A program made the translations under genes and the position numbers. The notes below the pieces were generated by a model. That model made no database searches, was not told the DNA's origin, and saw nothing but the letters and a program-made list of their open reading frames with translations. 49,409 nt of DNA from a virus, in IMG/VR virus record IMGVR_UViG_3300032240_001488, positions 1 through 49,409 of that record; one strand, given 5' to 3'. Of the stretch, positions 5,177 to 36,448 are shown piece after piece (the first letter of the stretch is position 1; each line of letters begins with the position of its first letter).

Positions 5177-7153
5177 ATGGCAACCACTACATCGAAAAAT
5201 TTTTCAAATGTAAATCAGCGTGATGTTCAGTATATGAACAGGGATTTTGGGACGTTGAAAGCGCAATTGATGAATTATGCACAGACATATTTTCCTAAAA
5301 CATACAAAGATTTTAGTGATGCTTCGCCTGGAACAATGTTTATTGAAATGGCGGCATATGTTGGTGATGTTTTATCATATTATACTGATTATCAGTTTAA
5401 GGAAAGTTTGCTTCCATATGCTCAAGAACGTCAAAATGTCATAGCATTGGCGAAGTTTTTAGGGTATAAACCAGCAGTTTCAAAAGCATCCAAAGCCAAA
5501 TTGGACATATACCAATTAGTTCCAGCCACCAGAGATTTAAATGGGAATTATGTTCCAGATACGTTATTTTGCTTAAATGTAAGAGAATACATGGAAGTAA
5601 AAAATACTTCTGGTGTAAGTTACATTACAACATCTCCTGTTGATTTTTCTGTAAATACTGCTTTAGACCCACGAATTGATTCTGTTTATAGCAGGGATTC
5701 ATATGGCATACCACAGTTCTTTTTATTACAGAAATCAGTGGATGTGATTTCTGGCACGGTTGTAAATCGAGACGTTTCAATTGGAACACCTACAGCATTC
5801 TATCAATTATCATTACCAGAAACCAATGTCCTTGACATTTTAACTGTAACAGATTCAGATAACAATAAATGGTATCAAGTTGATTATTTAGCACAAGATT
5901 TGGTTTTCATTAATGTGGACAACACTTCTACAAATGATGGAAACTACTATGTTTATAAAACGGAAGTTCCTAAATTGATTAAAAGTTTGAGAACTAATAA
6001 GAAATTTACAGTAAATGTTACAGCAGATAATTACACTTATTTGGAATTTGGCCCAAATGTAGATTCTGTAAATGATGAATTAATTTACCCAAGCGCAGGT
6101 TTATTAGGCGTGGGATTGTCAAATTTAAATAAGTTAGGAACCTCATTGGATTCATCAACTTTCTTAAAATCTAGCACATATGGACAAGCCCCGTCAAATA
6201 CGATATTGACTGTGAAATATATAGTTGGTGGCGGAATTGATGCAAATTGTCCAGTCGGTGACATTACAAATATAGTTTCCGTTAATCTATCAAACAACGT
6301 ATCTTCGATGACTCAAGCTCAAATGTCATTGTTTCAAACAATTCGAAATTCGTTGAAGGTATCTAATTCCGAGCCTGCCACTGGCGGTGCTGATGCAGAA
6401 AGTGTCGAACAAATTCGTCAAAATGCATTGATGAACTTTACATCTCAAAACAGAACTGTTACGGAGGATGATTATATCGTAAGAGTTTACAGTATGCCTC
6501 CAATTTACGGTTCAATATCAAAAGTTACCGTTAAATCTGATATGGGATTAACTGTAAATGACGTGTCTAATGGATATGTAGATTTCAATAATAACGCTAC
6601 ATTAACAGAAAATTCAAAAAATAACTATTATAGACGTATTAATTATAATAAGTCCAACCCATTTAGTGTTAATTTGTATGCATTGGGTTACGACCAAAAT
6701 AAGAATTTAACTCGATTAAATAATGCAACTATTGATAACTTGAGAAATTATTTAACGACATATAAAATGTTAAACGATGGAATCAACATTGTTGATGGGT
6801 ATATCGTTAATATTGGTGTAGATTTTCAAATATTGACATATTCCAACTATAATAAACAAGATGTGTTAAATAATTGTTTGGAAGTCGTTAAAGACTTTTT
6901 TAATATTGATAAATGGTATTTTGACATGCCAATTAATCTAGGTCAGTTGCAGTTAGCTATTGCACAAGTGGACGGCGTTCAGGCAGTTACCAAATTAACC
7001 ATAAAAAACTTGACGGCTAATGACGGTAATTATTCACCATATGAATATAACATTTCAGATGCCACTGTCAATAATATTGTTTACCCTAGTTTAGACCCAT
7101 CTGTATTTGAAGTTAAATATCCAAATAATGATATAAAAGGCTCCGTTATCTAA
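5177..7153 (+). CDS. 6: Baseplate wedge protein gp6 (gpJ-like)
   Basis: Main structural subunit of the inner baseplate ring, which dimerises between wedges. The 658-aa product is close to T4 gp6 in length. The N-terminal block is diagnostic: MNRDFGTLKAQLMNYAQTYF, then FSDASPGTMFIEMAAYVGD and an LLPYAQERQNVIALAKFLGY stretch, as in gp6/J-family proteins. A second conserved block at about residues 405-450 (EQIRQNALMNFTSQNRTVTE) matches the central gpJ-like region, and the C-terminal part is typical of the inner-ring dimer domain. It directly follows gp25. Confidence 0.9.
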   Translation: MATTTSKNFSNVNQRDVQYMNRDFGTLKAQLMNYAQTYFPKTYKDFSDASPGTMFIEMAAYVGDVLSYYTDYQFKESLLPYAQERQNVIALAKFLGYKPAVSKASKAKLDIYQLVPATRDLNGNYVPDTLFCLNVREYMEVKNTSGVSYITTSPVDFSVNTALDPRIDSVYSRDSYGIPQFFLLQKSVDVISGTVVNRDVSIGTPTAFYQLSLPETNVLDILTVTDSDNNKWYQVDYLAQDLVFINVDNTSTNDGNYYVYKTEVPKLIKSLRTNKKFTVNVTADNYTYLEFGPNVDSVNDELIYPSAGLLGVGLSNLNKLGTSLDSSTFLKSSTYGQAPSNTILTVKYIVGGGIDANCPVGDITNIVSVNLSNNVSSMTQAQMSLFQTIRNSLKVSNSEPATGGADAESVEQIRQNALMNFTSQNRTVTEDDYIVRVYSMPPIYGSISKVTVKSDMGLTVNDVSNGYVDFNNNATLTENSKNNYYRRINYNKSNPFSVNLYALGYDQNKNLTRLNNATIDNLRNYLTTYKMLNDGINIVDGYIVNIGVDFQILTYSNYNKQDVLNNCLEVVKDFFNIDKWYFDMPINLGQLQLAIAQVDGVQAVTKLTIKNLTANDGNYSPYEYNISDATVNNIVYPSLDPSVFEVKYPNNDIKGSVI

Positions 7154-20806: not shown

Positions 20807-21070
20807 ATGGCAGACCCAAATAGACCATCAACATCAACGGATTTAGTAAGTAGATACCAGAATCAAAAAGCTGGTGGTGCTTACGATGCTAAAAAAGCTG
20901 GAACTTCTACTACGGAGCCATCCAATCAGGCTGCTTCTTACGACAAAACAAACACTTTTGTTGTAAACACGCCACCGCTCGTATCTAATTTTAAAGGGAC
21001 TGAATCTAGCAATTACAATGAAATTTCATTGTATGCCAAGGGGTTAAATACCACAAAATATAAAGGTTAA
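20807..21070 (+). CDS. Small hydrophilic hypothetical protein, 87 aa
   Basis: An 87-residue, Ser/Thr/Asn/Lys-rich and probably disordered product with no recognised family. It follows the giant adhesin and is the last gene before the strand switch. Its stop codon (TAA, 21068-21070) overlaps the stop of the antisense GIY-YIG gene in a shared TTAA palindrome, so the two converge without any spacer or terminator. Confidence 0.55.
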   Translation: MADPNRPSTSTDLVSRYQNQKAGGAYDAKKAGTSTTEPSNQAASYDKTNTFVVNTPPLVSNFKGTESSNYNEISLYAKGLNTTKYKG

Positions 21071-21465
21071 ACCTTTCGTATTCTAACACGGCCTCCGACA
21101 TATTCATTATAATAATTGGAGTCATATAATGCGTTTGCAAGAATGATTTGCTTCATTTCTTCGTAACTTAAATCGGATTTGCTCTTGCACCATGCCAAAA
21201 TTTCAAAAGAAAAGTTTTCTTTTCCAATTTTTATAATATCCTCGTTTAACTGATTACAACTACCTGTATAGGTTTTCCAGTCACTTTCTTTTGTAGAACG
21301 GCGTTTATTCACTCGACCCTTTAAAGGTTTTCGAGTGACTTTAAATTTCAACAACTTTTTTCCAATGTATTTCCGGTTATTTATATTATTGGTTATCCGA
21401 TAAATAAATCCCACACATGGGTCGGGTATATCACCTGTTGCATTTGTCCAATGTCCATAATCCAT
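21067..21465 (-). CDS. GIY-YIG-like nuclease, antisense
   Basis: A 132-aa protein of the GIY-YIG nuclease superfamily. The two signature strands are GFIY at residues 19-22 and KYIG at 32-35, joined by a short RITNNINNR loop. A basic stretch (KRRSTKESDWKTYTGS) follows, then a Glu-containing helix (SYEEMKQ, E102/E103) and an Asn near the end (YYNEYVGG), which fit the catalytic Arg/Lys, Glu and Asn positions of the family. No separate DNA-binding domain is present. T4-like phages often carry free-standing GIY-YIG proteins, some of them homing endonucleases (Seg). It is one of only three minus-strand genes and sits at the junction of the virion and replication blocks. Confidence 0.75.
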   Translation of the reverse strand: MDYGHWTNATGDIPDPCVGFIYRITNNINNRKYIGKKLLKFKVTRKPLKGRVNKRRSTKESDWKTYTGSCNQLNEDIIKIGKENFSFEILAWCKSKSDLSYEEMKQIILANALYDSNYYNEYVGGRVRIRKV

Positions 21466-21509: not shown

Positions 21510-22454
21510 ATGGCCTTACAGCAGGAAAAAATATTAAGTGTATTAAACAGACTTTTGAAGCAAAGTCCACGCATGAGAAAAGGTGGAACGGAAGCTATCT
21601 ATTTCTGTCCGAGTTGTAAACATTATAAAAGAAAACTTGAAGTATCATTAATAACTGGCAAATATCATTGTTGGGTATGTGGCTTCGCTGGTAAAAATTT
21701 TGGCACACTTTTGAAGAAGTTAAATGCTCCACGAGATTGTTATGAAATTGTTGGAGAAGTAAAAAAACTCAAGGCAAAAGAAGCATTTGACGACTTCTTT
21801 AATCCAGAAGGAGAAAAGGAAAAGATAAAATCGTTGCCAGCAGAATTTACACCTTTGAGTGAGTGTAAAAAAACTATTGAGTGTTCTCATGCCCTTCACT
21901 ATTTAGCAAAACGTGGGATTACTGATATTGATATAATTAGATACAATATTGGATATTGTGCTGACGGAGATTTTAAAAACCGAATTGTAATACCATCGTA
22001 TGATGCTGATGGAGAATTGAATTTTTATAGTTGCCGAGATTACTACGATACTTCGTGGTTAAAATATGTTAATTGCGATTTTTCAAAGAATATAGTTGGA
22101 TTTGAATTATTAGTTGATTTTTCGGATGAAGTGACTTTAGTTGAAGGTGCATTTGATGCAATCGCTGTTAGAACGAATTGTATTCCTTTGTTTGGAAAAA
22201 CAATGTCCGAGAGGTTGAAAATAAAATTACTTGAAAACAAACCTAAATGTGTTAACATATTACTTGACAATGATGCATTGGAAGATTCCATTAAAAACTG
22301 TGAATATTTAATGAAAAACGGATTGTCCGTTAAGTTAGTAGAGTTAAAAGAAAAAGACCCATCGGTATTGGGATTTGTAAATACGTGGGATTATATTGAT
22401 AATACCCCGCTATTAACATTTAACGATTTGTTTAGATTGAAAATGAATTTATGA
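21510..22454 (+). CDS. 61: DNA primase, gp61-like (DnaG type)
   Basis: Synthesises RNA primers for lagging-strand replication. The 314-aa protein has an N-terminal zinc-binding domain (CPSCKHY at about residues 33-39, then CWVCGF) and a TOPRIM domain with VTLVEGAFDAIAV near residue 210, carrying the catalytic Glu, and ILLDNDAL near 250, carrying the acidic pair. This is the DnaG/gp61 architecture without a fused helicase. The partner helicase gp41 is not in the window. Its stop overlaps the start of the Mre11-Rad50 fusion (ATGA), so replication primer synthesis and recombination are translationally linked. It is a replication gene placed inside the virion-gene order. Confidence 0.85.
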   Translation: MALQQEKILSVLNRLLKQSPRMRKGGTEAIYFCPSCKHYKRKLEVSLITGKYHCWVCGFAGKNFGTLLKKLNAPRDCYEIVGEVKKLKAKEAFDDFFNPEGEKEKIKSLPAEFTPLSECKKTIECSHALHYLAKRGITDIDIIRYNIGYCADGDFKNRIVIPSYDADGELNFYSCRDYYDTSWLKYVNCDFSKNIVGFELLVDFSDEVTLVEGAFDAIAVRTNCIPLFGKTMSERLKIKLLENKPKCVNILLDNDALEDSIKNCEYLMKNGLSVKLVELKEKDPSVLGFVNTWDYIDNTPLLTFNDLFRLKMNL

Positions 22455-25400
22455 TACAATTAAAAAACGCTATTGAAAAATTTTCCAATGTAGTTCACAT
22501 TGGAGATATTCATATTAGATTAGTTCAACGTCATGCTGAATATTTGGAAGTATTTTCCGAATTATATACTCAAATTGACAAAACACCAGACTCTACTTTA
22601 ATTGTAGTAGCTGGTGATATTTTTCATAATAAATCAGATTTAAGTCCAGAATCGGTAAGAATTGCTTCGGATTTTTTAAAAAATCTTGCAGATAGAAGAC
22701 CTACCATTTTAATTGCGGGTAATCATGATGCGACCTTAACAAATAGAAATCGTTTAGATAGCTTATCTCCGATTGTGTCTGCATTATCCCACCCAAATCT
22801 CTATTATTTGATAGATACTGATTCATACATCATTGGTGATGTATTATTTCATAATTATTCAGTATTTGATGAACCGGAGAATTATACTCCTTACGCAACT
22901 GTCCCATCAATTTATAAAAATCAAGTTTCTCATACAATTGGATTATATCATGGCCCCGTAGATGGTGCTATTACAGACGTTGGATATTCAATTTCAAACA
23001 AAAATGTGACCATTGAGAAATTTAATGGATTGCAAATGGTTATGTTGGGAGATATTCACAAACATCAAATACTTCAACAATTTGATGATATTAATGATAA
23101 ACCCGTGATTACATATTGTGGTAGTTTAATTCAACAAGACCACGGCGAAAATTTGCGTGGACATGGATATTTGTATTGGGATTTAAAAACTAAATCGTTT
23201 ACACACCACGAGTTAAAAAATGATTATGGGTTTTTTACGGTTGAAGTAAATAAAGGGGTGTTAACTACAGACATTACCAATATACCTAAAAAAGCTATAT
23301 TAAGAGTCAAATGTATTGAGAGTATTCAATCTGAAGTAAAATCGGTATTATCAGAGATAAAGGATAAAACTGAAGTTGCAGAAGTAAGTTATGTTCGGGT
23401 TGACGATTCTGCTGAAAAACAAGATTTATCATCGGTAGCTCAAGTTAACATTCAGAGCATTTCAGACGTAGAGTATCAAAATACGCTAATTAAGACTTAT
23501 TTTGAAAACAAGAAGATTATCGTATCTGATGCGGAATTAGAAAAAATCTATGAATTAAACAAGTCGTTTAATGCGGAGTTAAAAAAAGAATATACCCCAA
23601 AAAACATTAGATGGAAACCTAAAATTTTTGAATTTGACAACATGTTTAGTTATGGGGAAGGTAACATTGTTGACTTTTCTAAAATGAATGGTGTGATGGG
23701 ATTGTTTGCTAGTAATGCCAGTGGAAAGAGTAGCATTTTATCTGCATTGGCGTTTTGTTTGTTTGATAAATGTGAACGAACATCTAAAGCGTCTAGCATA
23801 TTAAATAGTCAAAAAATGACATTTAAGTGCAAGTTTAATTTTGAAATTGATGGTGTTGATTATTTCATAGAAAGAAATGCCACATCCGATAAAACAGGCA
23901 ATGTTAAGGTAGATGTCAATTTCTGGAAACTTTTGGATGGTAAAAAAGTATCGTTGAACGGAGAGAAACGTGCCAGCACAAATGATATAATCCGTGATTA
24001 TATTGGAACCTATGATGATTTCATTTTCACGACATTATCAGTTCAAAACAGTAAAGATGGTGGCTTCATTGATATGGGACACTCCGATAGAAAAGATTTG
24101 CTTGTTCAATTTATGGGATTGAATATCTTTGATAAGTTGAATGATATTGCCACCAAAAAAGCAAACAAAACAGCGACTTTATTGGAAAGTATGGTCGCTG
24201 ATGATTATGAGTCTAAAATCCAATTAACGCACTCTAAGATTGAAGAATCAAAGAATAGATTGAAGAAAACAAATGATGAATTGGACAAGTTGGTTGAACA
24301 TAAGGATAAATTGGATGCGAATATATTACAATTTACCACTTTGTTAGTTCCAATTTCAGATTCAATTGCATCTTCAAATATAACTGTTTTAGAAGCATCA
24401 AAGATTGACTTGGAAAAATCTATCAATAAAGATGAAACGGTGACGATTCCTGCAATCAAAATAGACATTTCTAAACAAGAGGCGGAATTAGAAAAAATGC
24501 GTCCAATGTTGTTGGAATTAGACGAAAAAAATCTAACGGAAAATTCTACAAAATTCAAAAAAGCGTCAATTAGACATACTGAATTGGAAAGAACTATTGG
24601 ATTAAAAATCGAACAATTAAACAATAAGAAAGAAAAACTAAAAAAATTAGAAAATCATAAATATGACCCAAATTGTGATTTTTGTGTTAATAACGTATTT
24701 GTTAAAGATGCAATTAACACGAAATCTGAAATTGAATCAGATAAGGCAGAGTTAGTTCCTTTGATGAATGAATTTAAAGAAACTAAAGCCGAATTAGAAT
24801 CTTTGAATTGGGTAGTGACCGCACAAGAATTGCATCCGAAATTATCGAATAAAATTTTATCAATAGAAAGTTCTATTTCAAAATTGAATTCTAATATTCT
24901 AAGGGTTCAAAATACTATTGATTTGAATAAATCCACACTTGTTAAAGTAGTGGAGAACATTGAAATGTATTACAAGCAAAAAGAATCTATTGAGAAAAAT
25001 ACCAAAGTTTCGAATGGAATTAAACAATTGAAAATTGAATCAGATGATACTTACAAACAAATTAAATTAAAAAATAAAGATGTGTCTGATTTAACAAATT
25101 CTATCACTGCTCATGAAACTAACCTTGTGGCATTGGAGGAATCTCTTGGAAAACGAAAAGAATTGGAATTTTTCAATAGTTGTTACTCACATTATTTATC
25201 GGCAGTTAATCGAGATGGCATTCCTTACGAATTGATTATCCAAATGATGCCTGTTATAGAAAAAGAAGTTAATGATATTTTACACCAAATTGTTGATTTT
25301 ACGTTATCATTTTCATCAGATGGTAAAAATATCATCACCAATATAGTGTATGACGATAAAAAATGGTTAGTTGAATTGGGAAGTGGTATGGAGAAGTTTA

Positions 25401-25654
25401 TCAGTTCATTGGCTATTAGAAGGGCTTTAATTAGTATAAGCAATTTACCTAGACCGAATTTTATCATATTTGATGAAGGATGGGGGACGTTGGACGCTCA
25501 ACATATCAGTGAAGTGAAGCTATTATTCGATTATTTGAAAACTCAATTCGATTTTATAATGATTATTTCACATATTGATTCAATTAAGGATTTAGTTGAC
25601 AATTTATTGGAAATTACTAAAAACGAAGGCTTTTCTCAAATAAAGTATCTATGA
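22451..25654 (+). CDS. Mre11-Rad50 (gp47-gp46/SbcD-SbcC) single-chain fusion
   Basis: One 1067-aa ORF joins the two subunits of the recombination nuclease that are separate genes 47 and 46 in T4. Residues 1-330 are a calcineurin-like phosphoesterase: HIGDIHI, GDIFHNK, GNHDA, a lone His in LYHGPV and GDIHKHQ supply the metal ligands of Mre11/SbcD. After a linker, residues about 385-1067 are Rad50/SbcC. Walker A is ASNASGKSS (A420 to S427, with Ala where the first Gly is usual). Then come long coiled coils, a zinc-hook CDFC (C742/C745), the LGSGMEKF signature and Walker B FIIFDEGWGTLD (D1008/E1009). The enzyme would process double-strand ends for recombination-dependent replication. The frame shows no internal stop. 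Confidence 0.85.
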   Translation: MIQLKNAIEKFSNVVHIGDIHIRLVQRHAEYLEVFSELYTQIDKTPDSTLIVVAGDIFHNKSDLSPESVRIASDFLKNLADRRPTILIAGNHDATLTNRNRLDSLSPIVSALSHPNLYYLIDTDSYIIGDVLFHNYSVFDEPENYTPYATVPSIYKNQVSHTIGLYHGPVDGAITDVGYSISNKNVTIEKFNGLQMVMLGDIHKHQILQQFDDINDKPVITYCGSLIQQDHGENLRGHGYLYWDLKTKSFTHHELKNDYGFFTVEVNKGVLTTDITNIPKKAILRVKCIESIQSEVKSVLSEIKDKTEVAEVSYVRVDDSAEKQDLSSVAQVNIQSISDVEYQNTLIKTYFENKKIIVSDAELEKIYELNKSFNAELKKEYTPKNIRWKPKIFEFDNMFSYGEGNIVDFSKMNGVMGLFASNASGKSSILSALAFCLFDKCERTSKASSILNSQKMTFKCKFNFEIDGVDYFIERNATSDKTGNVKVDVNFWKLLDGKKVSLNGEKRASTNDIIRDYIGTYDDFIFTTLSVQNSKDGGFIDMGHSDRKDLLVQFMGLNIFDKLNDIATKKANKTATLLESMVADDYESKIQLTHSKIEESKNRLKKTNDELDKLVEHKDKLDANILQFTTLLVPISDSIASSNITVLEASKIDLEKSINKDETVTIPAIKIDISKQEAELEKMRPMLLELDEKNLTENSTKFKKASIRHTELERTIGLKIEQLNNKKEKLKKLENHKYDPNCDFCVNNVFVKDAINTKSEIESDKAELVPLMNEFKETKAELESLNWVVTAQELHPKLSNKILSIESSISKLNSNILRVQNTIDLNKSTLVKVVENIEMYYKQKESIEKNTKVSNGIKQLKIESDDTYKQIKLKNKDVSDLTNSITAHETNLVALEESLGKRKELEFFNSCYSHYLSAVNRDGIPYELIIQMMPVIEKEVNDILHQIVDFTLSFSSDGKNIITNIVYDDKKWLVELGSGMEKFISSLAIRRALISISNLPRPNFIIFDEGWGTLDAQHISEVKLLFDYLKTQFDFIMIISHIDSIKDLVDNLLEITKNEGFSQIKYL

Positions 25655-32949: not shown

Positions 32950-34542
32950 ATGAGCGAAAAGAGTTTAAGAGAGGTAATCAAGGAAGAATACAAGCGTTGT
33001 TTGCTTGACCCCATGTATTTCATGAAGAAATATGTGAAAATTCAACATCAAACTCGTGGCATTATTCCATTTGAATTATATCCTTTTCAAGAAGAAGCTC
33101 TCCAAGATTTCGTTGATTATGATAGAAATATTGTTTTGAAATCCCGTCAAATGGGTATTTCTACATTGTGTTCCGCTTATGCGTTGTGGACGATGATTTT
33201 TAATCCAGGTAAAAACGTATTAATTATTTCAACCAAACAGGATACTTCTAAGGAAATCGTATCTAAAATTAGATTGGCAAATAACAATTTACCCAGTTGG
33301 TTGAAAATTGCAACGGTTGAAGATAATAGATTGTCTTTAAAATTTAAAAATGAATCGAAGGTGGAAGCCGCATCATCTTCATCCGATTCCGTTCGTGGTA
33401 AATCTGCATATCTTTTGATTCTTGACGAATGCGCATTCATTGATGGAATTGAAGATATTTGGACTTCTGCACAACAAACAATGGCTACTGGTGGTAGAGC
33501 TATATTGCTTTCTACTCCAAACGGTGTTGGTAATTTTTTTCATAAACAATGGGTTGATGCAGAATCTAAAAAAAGCGCATTTCATTGTATTAATTTAAGA
33601 TGGGATAGACATCCTGAAAGAAATCAAGCATGGAGAGATAGGCAAACCACCGAGCTTGGGCCTAAAAAGGCAGCACAGGAATGTGATTGTGAATTTTTGT
33701 CATCCGGTAATACGGTTGTAGAAATAGCATTAATTGAAGCATTGAAAAAAATTGCTCCTGACCCCGTAGAAATTCGTGGAAGCGACCAGAGTTTTTGGAT
33801 ATGGGAACGTGTTGATTATAGCAAAAATTATTTAATTAGTGCGGACGTTGCTCGTGGTGATGGTAATGATTATAGTGCATTTCAGATAATTGACCCTGAA
33901 ACAATGAATCAAGTTGCGGAATACAAAGGAGTAATAGACACAAAAGAATATGGCAACATGTTGGTTGGTGTTGCAACGGAATATAATTCTGCGTTATTGG
34001 TAATTGAAAACTCGTCATACGGATGGGCAGTTATTCAACAGGTTGTTGATAGAGGGTATCAAAATTTATTTTACAGTAGTGCAGATTTGCAATACGTGGA
34101 TGTGGAAAAACATATGGTTACCAAGTTTAATGCAGATGAAAAGAAAATGGTTCCTGGTTTTACTACAAGCACCAAAACAAGACCACTTATAATTGAAAAA
34201 TTGGAGACATGCCTTCGTGAAGGAGTATTTGGTATTAAGTCAAAAAGATTGTTAGATGAATTGAGTGTTTTTATTTGGAACAATGGTAGAGCAGAGGCTA
34301 TGCGTGGATATAATGATGATTTGGTTATAAGTGCTGCTATTGGATTATGGATTAGAGATACGGCACTACGATTAAGACGTGAAGCTATGGATGTAAACAG
34401 AGTCATACTATCTGGAATTAAAAGAACAGGCGGCGAAACTGAAATAAGTCAGAAATATACCAGAAATTCTGAATTAGCTAGGAAATCTTGGAATTTTGAT
34501 ACGGGTAGAGAGAAAAATCAATCATTAAATTGGTTATTATAA
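32950..34542 (+). CDS. 17: Terminase large subunit gp17
   Basis: ATP-driven DNA packaging motor and headful nuclease. The 530-aa protein has a Q motif (YPFQEEAL, about residue 44-51), a deviant Walker A KSRQMGIST (residues 64-72, with the Lys at the start and Ile where T4 has Lys), Walker B LLILDE (D159/E160), a coupling motif STPNGVG, and a C-terminal RNase H-like nuclease with SADVARGDGNDYSAF (D299) and YNDDLVISAAIGLW. Both domains are complete. It follows the zinc-ribbon gene by one base and precedes the portal gene, the usual packaging order. Confidence 0.93.
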   Translation: MSEKSLREVIKEEYKRCLLDPMYFMKKYVKIQHQTRGIIPFELYPFQEEALQDFVDYDRNIVLKSRQMGISTLCSAYALWTMIFNPGKNVLIISTKQDTSKEIVSKIRLANNNLPSWLKIATVEDNRLSLKFKNESKVEAASSSSDSVRGKSAYLLILDECAFIDGIEDIWTSAQQTMATGGRAILLSTPNGVGNFFHKQWVDAESKKSAFHCINLRWDRHPERNQAWRDRQTTELGPKKAAQECDCEFLSSGNTVVEIALIEALKKIAPDPVEIRGSDQSFWIWERVDYSKNYLISADVARGDGNDYSAFQIIDPETMNQVAEYKGVIDTKEYGNMLVGVATEYNSALLVIENSSYGWAVIQQVVDRGYQNLFYSSADLQYVDVEKHMVTKFNADEKKMVPGFTTSTKTRPLIIEKLETCLREGVFGIKSKRLLDELSVFIWNNGRAEAMRGYNDDLVISAAIGLWIRDTALRLRREAMDVNRVILSGIKRTGGETEISQKYTRNSELARKSWNFDTGREKNQSLNWLL

Positions 34543-34553
34543 TATTTATACAC

Positions 34554-34561
34554 TATTTATT
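34554..34561 (+). promoter_or_regulatory. TATTTATT box 5 nt before portal ATG
   Basis: TATTTATT-TTTAT-ATG at 34567. A second copy, TATTTATA, lies at 34543-34550. Both sit in the 24-nt gap between terminase and portal. Confidence 0.5.
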
Positions 34562-34566
34562 TTTAT

Positions 34567-36444
34567 ATGCCTGATGCAGAATTTCAGAATTTAAAACAGA
34601 GGTCGTTATACGCCCGTCTTAAAAAGCTTTTTAGCACCGATGTAATCGTTAGAAACATTGGCGGTAAACAGTTAAAAGTTGTTGATACAGATGAAGCAAT
34701 GTATGCGACAGATAGAAATACATTGCGTGACAGGTTCAATCGTATCAGAACTTCGGCATACAATCAATATAGTCGTGATTTTTCATTAAGTTATCAAGCG
34801 TCTCGTGTCGAGTTATTCCGTGACTATGATACTATGGATGCTGACCCAATTATTGCATCTGCATTAGATATTTATGCAGACGAATCCATTACAAAAAATG
34901 AATTGGGTAATATTCTAACCGTCCATTCTGACAATGGAAATATCAAACAAATTTTAGAAAACTTATTCTATGACATATTAAATATTGAATTTAATTTATG
35001 GTCGTGGACAAGAAACTTGGTAAAATACGGTGATTTCTATTTAAAATTGCACATTTCTCCTGAGTATGGCATTTACATGGTTGAACCTATTAGTGCATAT
35101 AACGTTACTCGTGTTGAAAACAGTGATTTGAACAACAAGTCTTACGTTAAATTTCAAGTGAATTTACCTGAAGGTGGTAAAATTGAAAATCTTGAAAATT
35201 ATAATGTGGCTCATTTTAGATTATTAAGTGATAGCAATTTTCTACCATATGGTAAGAGCATGATTGAAAATGCTCGTCGTGTATGGAAACAATTGTCATT
35301 AATGGAAGATGCGATGTTAATTCATCGTATTATGAGGGCCCCGGAAAAACGTATTTTTAAAATTGATGTCGGTAATTTGCCTCCACAAGAAATTGACGCT
35401 TACATGGAAAAATTGACGGCTAAGATGCAAAAAGCTCCATATATTGATGAAAAAACTGGAGATTACAATCTTCGTTTTAACCTTCAAAATATGGCAGAAG
35501 ATTTCTGGATTCCGGTTCGTGGCGGTGATAGTGGAACAAGCATTGAGCCATTATCCGGTATGGAATTTACTGGTATTGATGACGTTGAATACTTACGCAA
35601 CAAGATGATGGCTGCGTTAAAGATTCCAAAAGCGTTTTTGACTTATGAAGAAGATTTGAGTGGTAAAGCTACTTTGGCAGGTGAAGATGTTAGATTTGCT
35701 AAGACAATATTGAGAATTCAGAGAATCTTGGTAAGTGAATTGACTAAAATTGCAATTATTCACTTATATTCGCAAGGTTATAAAGATGCCGCTTTAGTGA
35801 ATTTTAGTTTAGAATTAACCAATCCTTCCGTTATTTTTGAAAAAGAAAAAATTTCAATGTGGGGCGATAAAGTAGGCGTTGCTAAAGACATGTTAGAAGA
35901 AAAGTTGTTTAGTAAGAAGTGGATTTATACCAATATATTCCACATGTCCGAGGAAGATGCAAACACAGTATCTACAGAGGTTGTTGATGATACTAAACAA
36001 AATTACAGATTTAAGCAGATTGAAGAAGAAGGTAATGACCCTGCCAAACCGTTTGATAAAATTAAGCCAGATGGACAAGATAGTGCGCCAGCAGGCGGTG
36101 AAGAACCCGATTTAGGTGAACCTGAAAAACCTGATGGTGGTGAAAAAACCGAGGCTCCCCCGTCTCCTTTGGCCGAAAAGTCTAAAGAACCATATGTAAG
36201 ACCATCACAGGCTGGCAAGAAGAAATCTTCTGATTATCCATACGGGGAAGATAGATTGGGCAAATTAGCATTTAACCCAAAAGATGAGACTGACCCAATC
36301 AGACATGTATATAAAAATGACAGCCCATTGAATTTAGAAGGATTAAATACGTTTTTAACGTCATTAGACCAAGATAAGAGGAATTTACTTGCAGAAAACA
36401 AAGATTTTACGTCTTACATGGACGAGGTTAACGTAAAAGACTAA
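34567..36444 (+). CDS. 20: Portal protein gp20
   Basis: Dodecameric portal at the capsid vertex through which DNA is packaged and ejected. The 625-aa protein matches T4-type gp20 through the N-terminal core: SYQASRVELFRDYDTMDADP, then IIASALDIYADESI, then FNLWSWTRNLVKYGDFYLKL and VEPISAYNVTRVE. The central clip/stem region follows (MEDAMLIHRIMRAPEKRIF, then KATLAGEDVRFAKTILRIQ). The C-terminal 120 residues are Pro/Glu/Gly-rich and probably disordered (EEPDLGEPEKPDGGEKTE). Its length exceeds T4 gp20 (524 aa) mainly through this tail. Confidence 0.93.
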   Translation: MPDAEFQNLKQRSLYARLKKLFSTDVIVRNIGGKQLKVVDTDEAMYATDRNTLRDRFNRIRTSAYNQYSRDFSLSYQASRVELFRDYDTMDADPIIASALDIYADESITKNELGNILTVHSDNGNIKQILENLFYDILNIEFNLWSWTRNLVKYGDFYLKLHISPEYGIYMVEPISAYNVTRVENSDLNNKSYVKFQVNLPEGGKIENLENYNVAHFRLLSDSNFLPYGKSMIENARRVWKQLSLMEDAMLIHRIMRAPEKRIFKIDVGNLPPQEIDAYMEKLTAKMQKAPYIDEKTGDYNLRFNLQNMAEDFWIPVRGGDSGTSIEPLSGMEFTGIDDVEYLRNKMMAALKIPKAFLTYEEDLSGKATLAGEDVRFAKTILRIQRILVSELTKIAIIHLYSQGYKDAALVNFSLELTNPSVIFEKEKISMWGDKVGVAKDMLEEKLFSKKWIYTNIFHMSEEDANTVSTEVVDDTKQNYRFKQIEEEGNDPAKPFDKIKPDGQDSAPAGGEEPDLGEPEKPDGGEKTEAPPSPLAEKSKEPYVRPSQAGKKKSSDYPYGEDRLGKLAFNPKDETDPIRHVYKNDSPLNLEGLNTFLTSLDQDKRNLLAENKDFTSYMDEVNVKD

Positions 36445-36448
36445 ATAG

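Follow-up and report, generated by a model that had tools for sequence, protein, structure and literature searches.

Within the IMG/VR virus record IMGVR_UViG_3300032240_001488 (positions 1 to 49,409; this whole stretch of 49,409 nucleotides (nt) is referred to as the window), we identified a gene that joins the two partners of the Mre11-Rad50 (SbcD-SbcC) enzyme in one polypeptide. The ATG-started frame at 22451-25654 on the plus strand runs for 1067 residues without interruption, with the Mre11/SbcD half N-terminal and the Rad50/SbcC half C-terminal, whereas T4 gp46 and gp47 are two separate subunits. Pfam places Metallophos at residues 13-204 (E 3.6e-11) and AAA_23 at 396-622 (E 3.3e-10); SMC_N also matched, with its best stretch at 836-1059 (3.2e-7) and a total score below the Pfam cut-off. 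In PHROGs, the same protein matched both phrog_100 (SbcD-like, 2.8e-27) and phrog_77 (SbcC-like, 1.9e-42), and a sequence search of the PDB returned SbcC, Rad50 and Mre11 chains. Further, an AlphaFold2 model built from 34 family members (mean predicted local distance difference test score 81; predicted template modelling score (pTM) 0.46) was matched by Foldseek, within one chain, to Mre11 2q8u_B (target template modelling score 0.67) and Rad50 3auy_A (0.62). Because one frame carries both Pfam and PHROGs families and matches both structures, the results confirm a real Mre11-Rad50 fusion, functionally related to gp47/gp46 and SbcCD, and bear out a preliminary description that had read both enzymes in a single uninterrupted frame. 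The parts of the gene are as follows.

22451-25654, plus strand: Mre11-Rad50 (SbcD-SbcC) fusion gene, 1067 residues (frame, Pfam, PHROGs, alignment, model)
22487-23062, plus strand: Mre11 calcineurin-like phosphoesterase domain, residues 13-204, with DIH at 19-21 and GDIH at 200-203 (Pfam Metallophos, invariant columns)
23066-23104, plus strand: loop after motif V, residues 206-218, intact in the window and the split site in 16 relatives
23213-23440, plus strand: probable Mre11 capping domain, ~residues 255-330 (from AlphaFold2 secondary structure and position)
23468-23578, plus strand: helix-loop-helix, residues 340-376, presumed Rad50-binding domain of Mre11 (model; position agrees with PMC3175470)
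23579-23608, plus strand: predicted linker between the halves, ~residues 377-386 (model)
23609-24130, plus strand: Rad50 N-terminal ATPase lobe, residues 387-560, with Walker A at 420-427 (AAA_23, model)
24122-25207, plus strand: short antiparallel coiled coil, ~residues 558-734 and 749-919, with C742/C745 at nt 24674-24685 (model, alignment)
25220-25651, plus strand: Rad50 C-terminal lobe, residues 924-1067, with LGSGMEKF, D1008 E1009, D1015 and H1041 (Pfam, alignment, model, Foldseek)

An alignment of 34 family members, 38-51% identical to the window protein, revealed that all five Mre11 motifs, with DxH at 19-21, GD at 55-56, GNHD at 90-93, H167 and H203, are invariant or nearly so. The motifs of this half, previously described as a complete set, are indeed all present, but motif V reads GDIH instead of the canonical GHxH: D201, invariant in 34/34 aligned sequences, occupies the position of P. 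furiosus His206. Similarly, the Rad50 motifs lie at the residues first assigned to them, but Walker A (420-427, ASNASGKS) has Ala in place of its first Gly. The C-terminal half has the split ABC head around a coiled coil with a CxxC hook that defines Rad50/SbcC, and contains CDFC at 742-745, LGSGMEKF at 976-983, Walker B D1008/E1009, the D-loop D1015 and the H-loop H1041; the hook cysteines C742 and C745 are invariant in 34/34 sequences. Because the catalytic and ATPase residues are invariant across the aligned members, the fusion protein is under selection. The His-to-Asp exchange in motif V and the altered first Walker A residue, together with the location of the gene among virion structural genes, would also suit a structural, DNA-binding or regulatory derivative devoid of canonical nuclease or ATPase activity. 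We regard such a derivative as unlikely, as the remaining principal positions (metal-binding, Walker, signature, D-loop and H-loop) show little or no variation, Asp can bind metal, and the same Asp is found in the separate SbcD proteins of Bacillus phage 010DV004 and Vibrio phage D239.

The linker had initially been placed at residues 330-385. In the model, however, two helices (340-353 and 360-376) fill most of this stretch and the first Rad50 strand starts at 387, so the linker would comprise only ~10 residues. The helices presumably correspond to the helix-loop-helix by which Mre11 binds Rad50. Thus arranged, the predicted model, with the helix-loop-helix kept and a ~10-residue linker, fits the 9-12 residues calculated from the T. 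maritima complex as a sufficient linker (PMC3175470). The stretch preceding the junction is variable among relatives, and the enzyme of some relatives does consist of two pieces, although the cut lies elsewhere; both features could be taken to indicate that the fusion is only a supply route, with the Mre11 and Rad50 subunits separated by post-translational processing. This is very improbable, given that the window protein has no intein at the junction and that the split relatives are broken inside Mre11, never between Mre11 and Rad50.

The architecture, which the preliminary description had proposed to look for in phages, proved abundant there and had already been published. Yoshida, Claverie and Ogata (2011) reported Mre11/Rad50 fusions of the same order in mimivirus R555 and twelve others, a set that includes Bacillus phage 0305phi8-36, Deferribacter and C. 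kluyveri plasmids and some eukaryotes (PMC3175470). In a tblastn search of annotated phages, we found the fusion in Microcystis phage Mel-JY01, and a part or a split form of it in huge phages with genomes of 484 and 735 kb. Querying with the protein of the 735-kb phage also gave matches in Tenacibaculum phages pT24, PTm1 and PTm5, Chryseobacterium phages MA9V-1 and MA9V-2 and Sphingomonas phage PAU, whose fusions are annotated only as "metallo-phosphoesterase," "DNA repair" or similar. A profile scan of IMG/VR returned at least 550 relatives. Among the fetched loci covering the full length, 115 distinct gene sequences were recovered (one split sequence being only partly covered), of which 97 are in one frame, 16 are split inside Mre11 and 2 have isolated lesions. 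Locus L085 has a single in-frame stop near 6321, where close relatives read Q, and locus L096 has a frame change in the coiled coil (5777-5818); each could be an error or decay. Although the window gene lies on a metagenomic contig, we found no support for an assembly or sequencing artefact in which a lost stop or a frameshift had merged adjacent genes. Such a join is excluded because 97 of the 115 distinct gene sequences, drawn from many samples, have the joined frame, as do the genomes of cultured phages; both halves are also conserved through the junction, which leaves an artefact a vanishingly small probability. A tblastn search of PLSDB gave no match in plasmids, and a single-sequence scan of GTDB contigs gave none in cellular genomes. 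The profile scan of GTDB returned two contigs from metagenome-assembled genomes, one (L110) with a partial Mre11 only and the other (L109, PCAX01000028.1) with the full fusion and a primase upstream in a Chloroflexi bin; the latter is probably a misbinned phage contig. The fusion is common in aquatic phages, and fusions of this kind have been on record since 2011.

We compared the window protein with these systems. Like the fusions in the 2011 set, it has the N-Mre11/C-Rad50 order, a short linker and the capping and helix-loop-helix region (kept in most of those), and it belongs to a family abundant in aquatic metagenomes beside phage primase genes; the exchange at His206 is shared with R555 according to that study (PMC3175470). 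In contrast, the phage loci here number in the hundreds against one truncated phage case there, the window fusion is in a T4-like myophage, and its coiled coil is short, at ~180 residues per arm, unlike that described for R555. A cultured counterpart is the Mel-JY01 protein WWT39521.1, which is the same fusion at 38% identity over 99% of its length and is labelled "AAA domain containing protein" with no mention of fusion; it is single copy in a 190-kb genome and has a primase-like gene just upstream, with one short open reading frame (ORF) between. The pT24, PTm1, PTm5, MA9V-1/2 and PAU (gp288) proteins have the same two-domain order in one ORF of ~1300 residues, but they are only ~23% identical to the 735-kb phage query, have longer coiled coils and have no annotated primase neighbour. 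T4 gp47/gp46 and E. coli SbcD/SbcC share the domain families, motifs and D-then-C order with the window fusion but are two separate proteins, with a GHxH motif V and a CPxC hook.

This order was at first described as opposite to that of T4 genes 46 and 47, which is incorrect. Gene 47 (35428-36447) is transcribed before gene 46 (33302-34984) on the T4 minus strand, and in E. coli sbcD lies upstream of sbcC with a 4-nt overlap. The D-then-C order was also found in 5/5 further phages (Bacillus 010DV004, Synechococcus S-SKS1, Staphylococcus ESa1, Vibrio D239 and Xanthomonas XaC1), with a 4-nt overlap in D239. Because the Mre11 gene comes first in all of these pairs, the fusion retains the usual operon order, and D-then-C pairs, such as the overlapping one of D239, are a substrate for such a fusion. 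In trees of 16 phage fusion rows (the 484-kb phage row being secondarily split) and 7 separate pairs, all fusion rows, including those of pT24, PTm1, PTm5, MA9V-1/2 and PAU, fell on one side of a branch from the separate SbcD (Mre11 half, 94/92) and SbcC (Rad50 half, 98/96) proteins. These topologies are consistent with one fusion event among the sampled phages. Several events are possible, however, because separate pairs are few, the fused rows were collected through their similarity to fused queries and the trees lack R555; several events were also favoured in the 2011 study (PMC3175470).

We propose that the protein is very probably a covalently tethered end-processing enzyme of the gp47-gp46/SbcCD type that serves recombination and replication. 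Two copies would dimerise via their Mre11 parts, ATP-bound Rad50 heads and zinc hook into a two-nuclease, two-ATPase machine, as in the canonical 2:2 complex. The Mre11 helix-loop-helix, just before the junction, would dock on the base of the Rad50 coiled coil, from where the linker could bridge the short distance to the Rad50 N-terminus, and ATP binding and hydrolysis would control when DNA ends or hairpins reach the nuclease. The products would feed RecA/UvsX-type recombination and DNA replication in a large T4-like myophage. The most likely origin of the fusion is a D-then-C operon in which the stop separating two adjacent or overlapping genes was lost, and its guarantee of 1:1 supply is the most likely reason that it persisted. 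Three points weigh against this proposal. Activity is not guaranteed, since motif V has Asp for His and Walker A lacks its first Gly, although both altered residues are conserved and the Asp is shared by SbcD proteins of phages with separate subunits. With an overall pTM of only 0.46, the model leaves the placement of the domains relative to each other tentative. Finally, the window is a 49-kb fragment, and separate gp46/gp47 genes may lie elsewhere in the same phage.

The genomic surroundings bear on the proposed role. Directly upstream of the fusion lies the following gene.

21510-22454, plus strand: primase gene (phrog_47 DNA primase, 3.1e-37)

Its TGA overlaps the ATG of the fusion (ATGA), which suggests that the two are translationally coupled, and a primase relative ends within 200 nt of the fusion in 158/168 testable related loci, a number that includes near-duplicates. 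Phage primases are also present on the Global Ocean Sampling scaffolds that carry R555-like genes (PMC3175470), which therefore suggests that those scaffolds come from phages like that of the window. The window also encodes a T4-type baseplate wedge, tail sheath, terminase, portal, prohead protease, major capsid protein and head-tail adaptor. RecA is encoded in Mel-JY01, LR756508 and 5/8 long related contigs. In Mel-JY01 and the 8 long contigs, nothing matches SbcC strongly except the fusion, whole or split; no second intact SbcC-like gene was found among them, only weak partial matches. A second SbcC-like match in the 735-kb fusion phage (LR756501.1, 670999-672753, minus strand) contains four stop codons and is apparently a broken, interrupted or recoded separate gene. 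Just upstream of the window primase, at 21067-21465 on the minus strand, lies a SegE-like GIY-YIG putative homing endonuclease (Pfam SegE_GIY-YIG, 1.6e-33).

The window gene itself has neither a split nor an intein-like insert. In 16 relatives, however, the Mre11 half is cut at one site, between motif V (GDIH) and the next strand (GSxIQQ).

L017, 4986-8338; L020, 4986-8360; L126, 2267-5583: split loci
L125, 1907-2, minus strand: split locus
L027, 4962-9187: split locus in the 484-kb phage
L186, L187 and L189-L197: split loci

The first ORF carries an added acidic tail (for example, SEDEIDTINLNEWEIIEEFTK in L017, SENEIENVNFNEWEIIEEFDKIP in L125 and PESKVDEYKLEGWELADV in L189) and the second begins with a short head (MKYYKIKKK, MKYYKLRKK or MEDKESYVKIKRHN). 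In L027, the halves are separated by a 305-residue ORF that encodes a TnsA-like endonuclease domain; L186, L187 and L189-L197 have an intervening ORF of ~300 residues, which gave no significant Pfam match in the five tested. The tail peptide had no match elsewhere in the phage collection, and its exact back-translated pattern recovered only the two loci already known. A 61-row tree requires four changes between the intact and the split state, of which well-supported branches force at least three; L125, too short to be included, has a tail and a head almost the same as those of L017. Because L017, the nearest relative of the window in this tree, is split while the window gene is intact, the split arose or spread repeatedly. 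Known split-intein halves are longer than the tails of only ~25-35 and 5-20 residues seen here, and we therefore consider a split intein unlikely. Neither do we favour a group I intron, as the insert without an ORF is only ~150-250 nt and encodes the conserved tails. The pattern is suggestive of repeated homing. A parallel is the nrdA gene of phage Aeh1, which is split by mobE and remains functional (PMC2988022); the Aeh1 NrdA tails, compared by eye, are similar in arrangement, with no clear sequence match.

Two further observations concern related loci. Locus L098 (3501-7658) contains an intein-like insert of ~310 residues exactly in the Mre11 GNHD metal motif, starting with CYSEDHELLTQSGW and ending with ISICGN before Cys. 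Near the split fusion of the 484-kb phage (L027, 1316-2533) lies a TnpB-like OrfB_IS605/Cas12f1-like TNB protein. We give about even odds to the idea that homing elements have targeted the fused gene repeatedly. In at least 3-4 independent lineages, they would have cut Mre11 at one and the same hairpin following motif V, with element-borne tails on both halves keeping the two-piece enzyme assembled; between the halves there is sometimes an endonuclease-like gene or an unrelated ~300-residue ORF. L098 has the intein-like insert instead. Mre11 would then work in two pieces, whereas the Rad50 fusion is never broken.

Overall, the window and its relatives show, at full length and in abundance in phages, an enzyme form that had been known chiefly from mimivirus and a scattering of other genomes, and they support the conjecture of 2011 that phages are the source of many metagenomic "R555-like" genes. 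At 1067 residues and with short coiled coils, a single-chain Mre11-Rad50 could suit structural work on the whole machine, and the repeated splitting of the nuclease half at one site, with matching tails, would offer a natural series for asking how an enzyme interrupted by a mobile element can still function as separate pieces.

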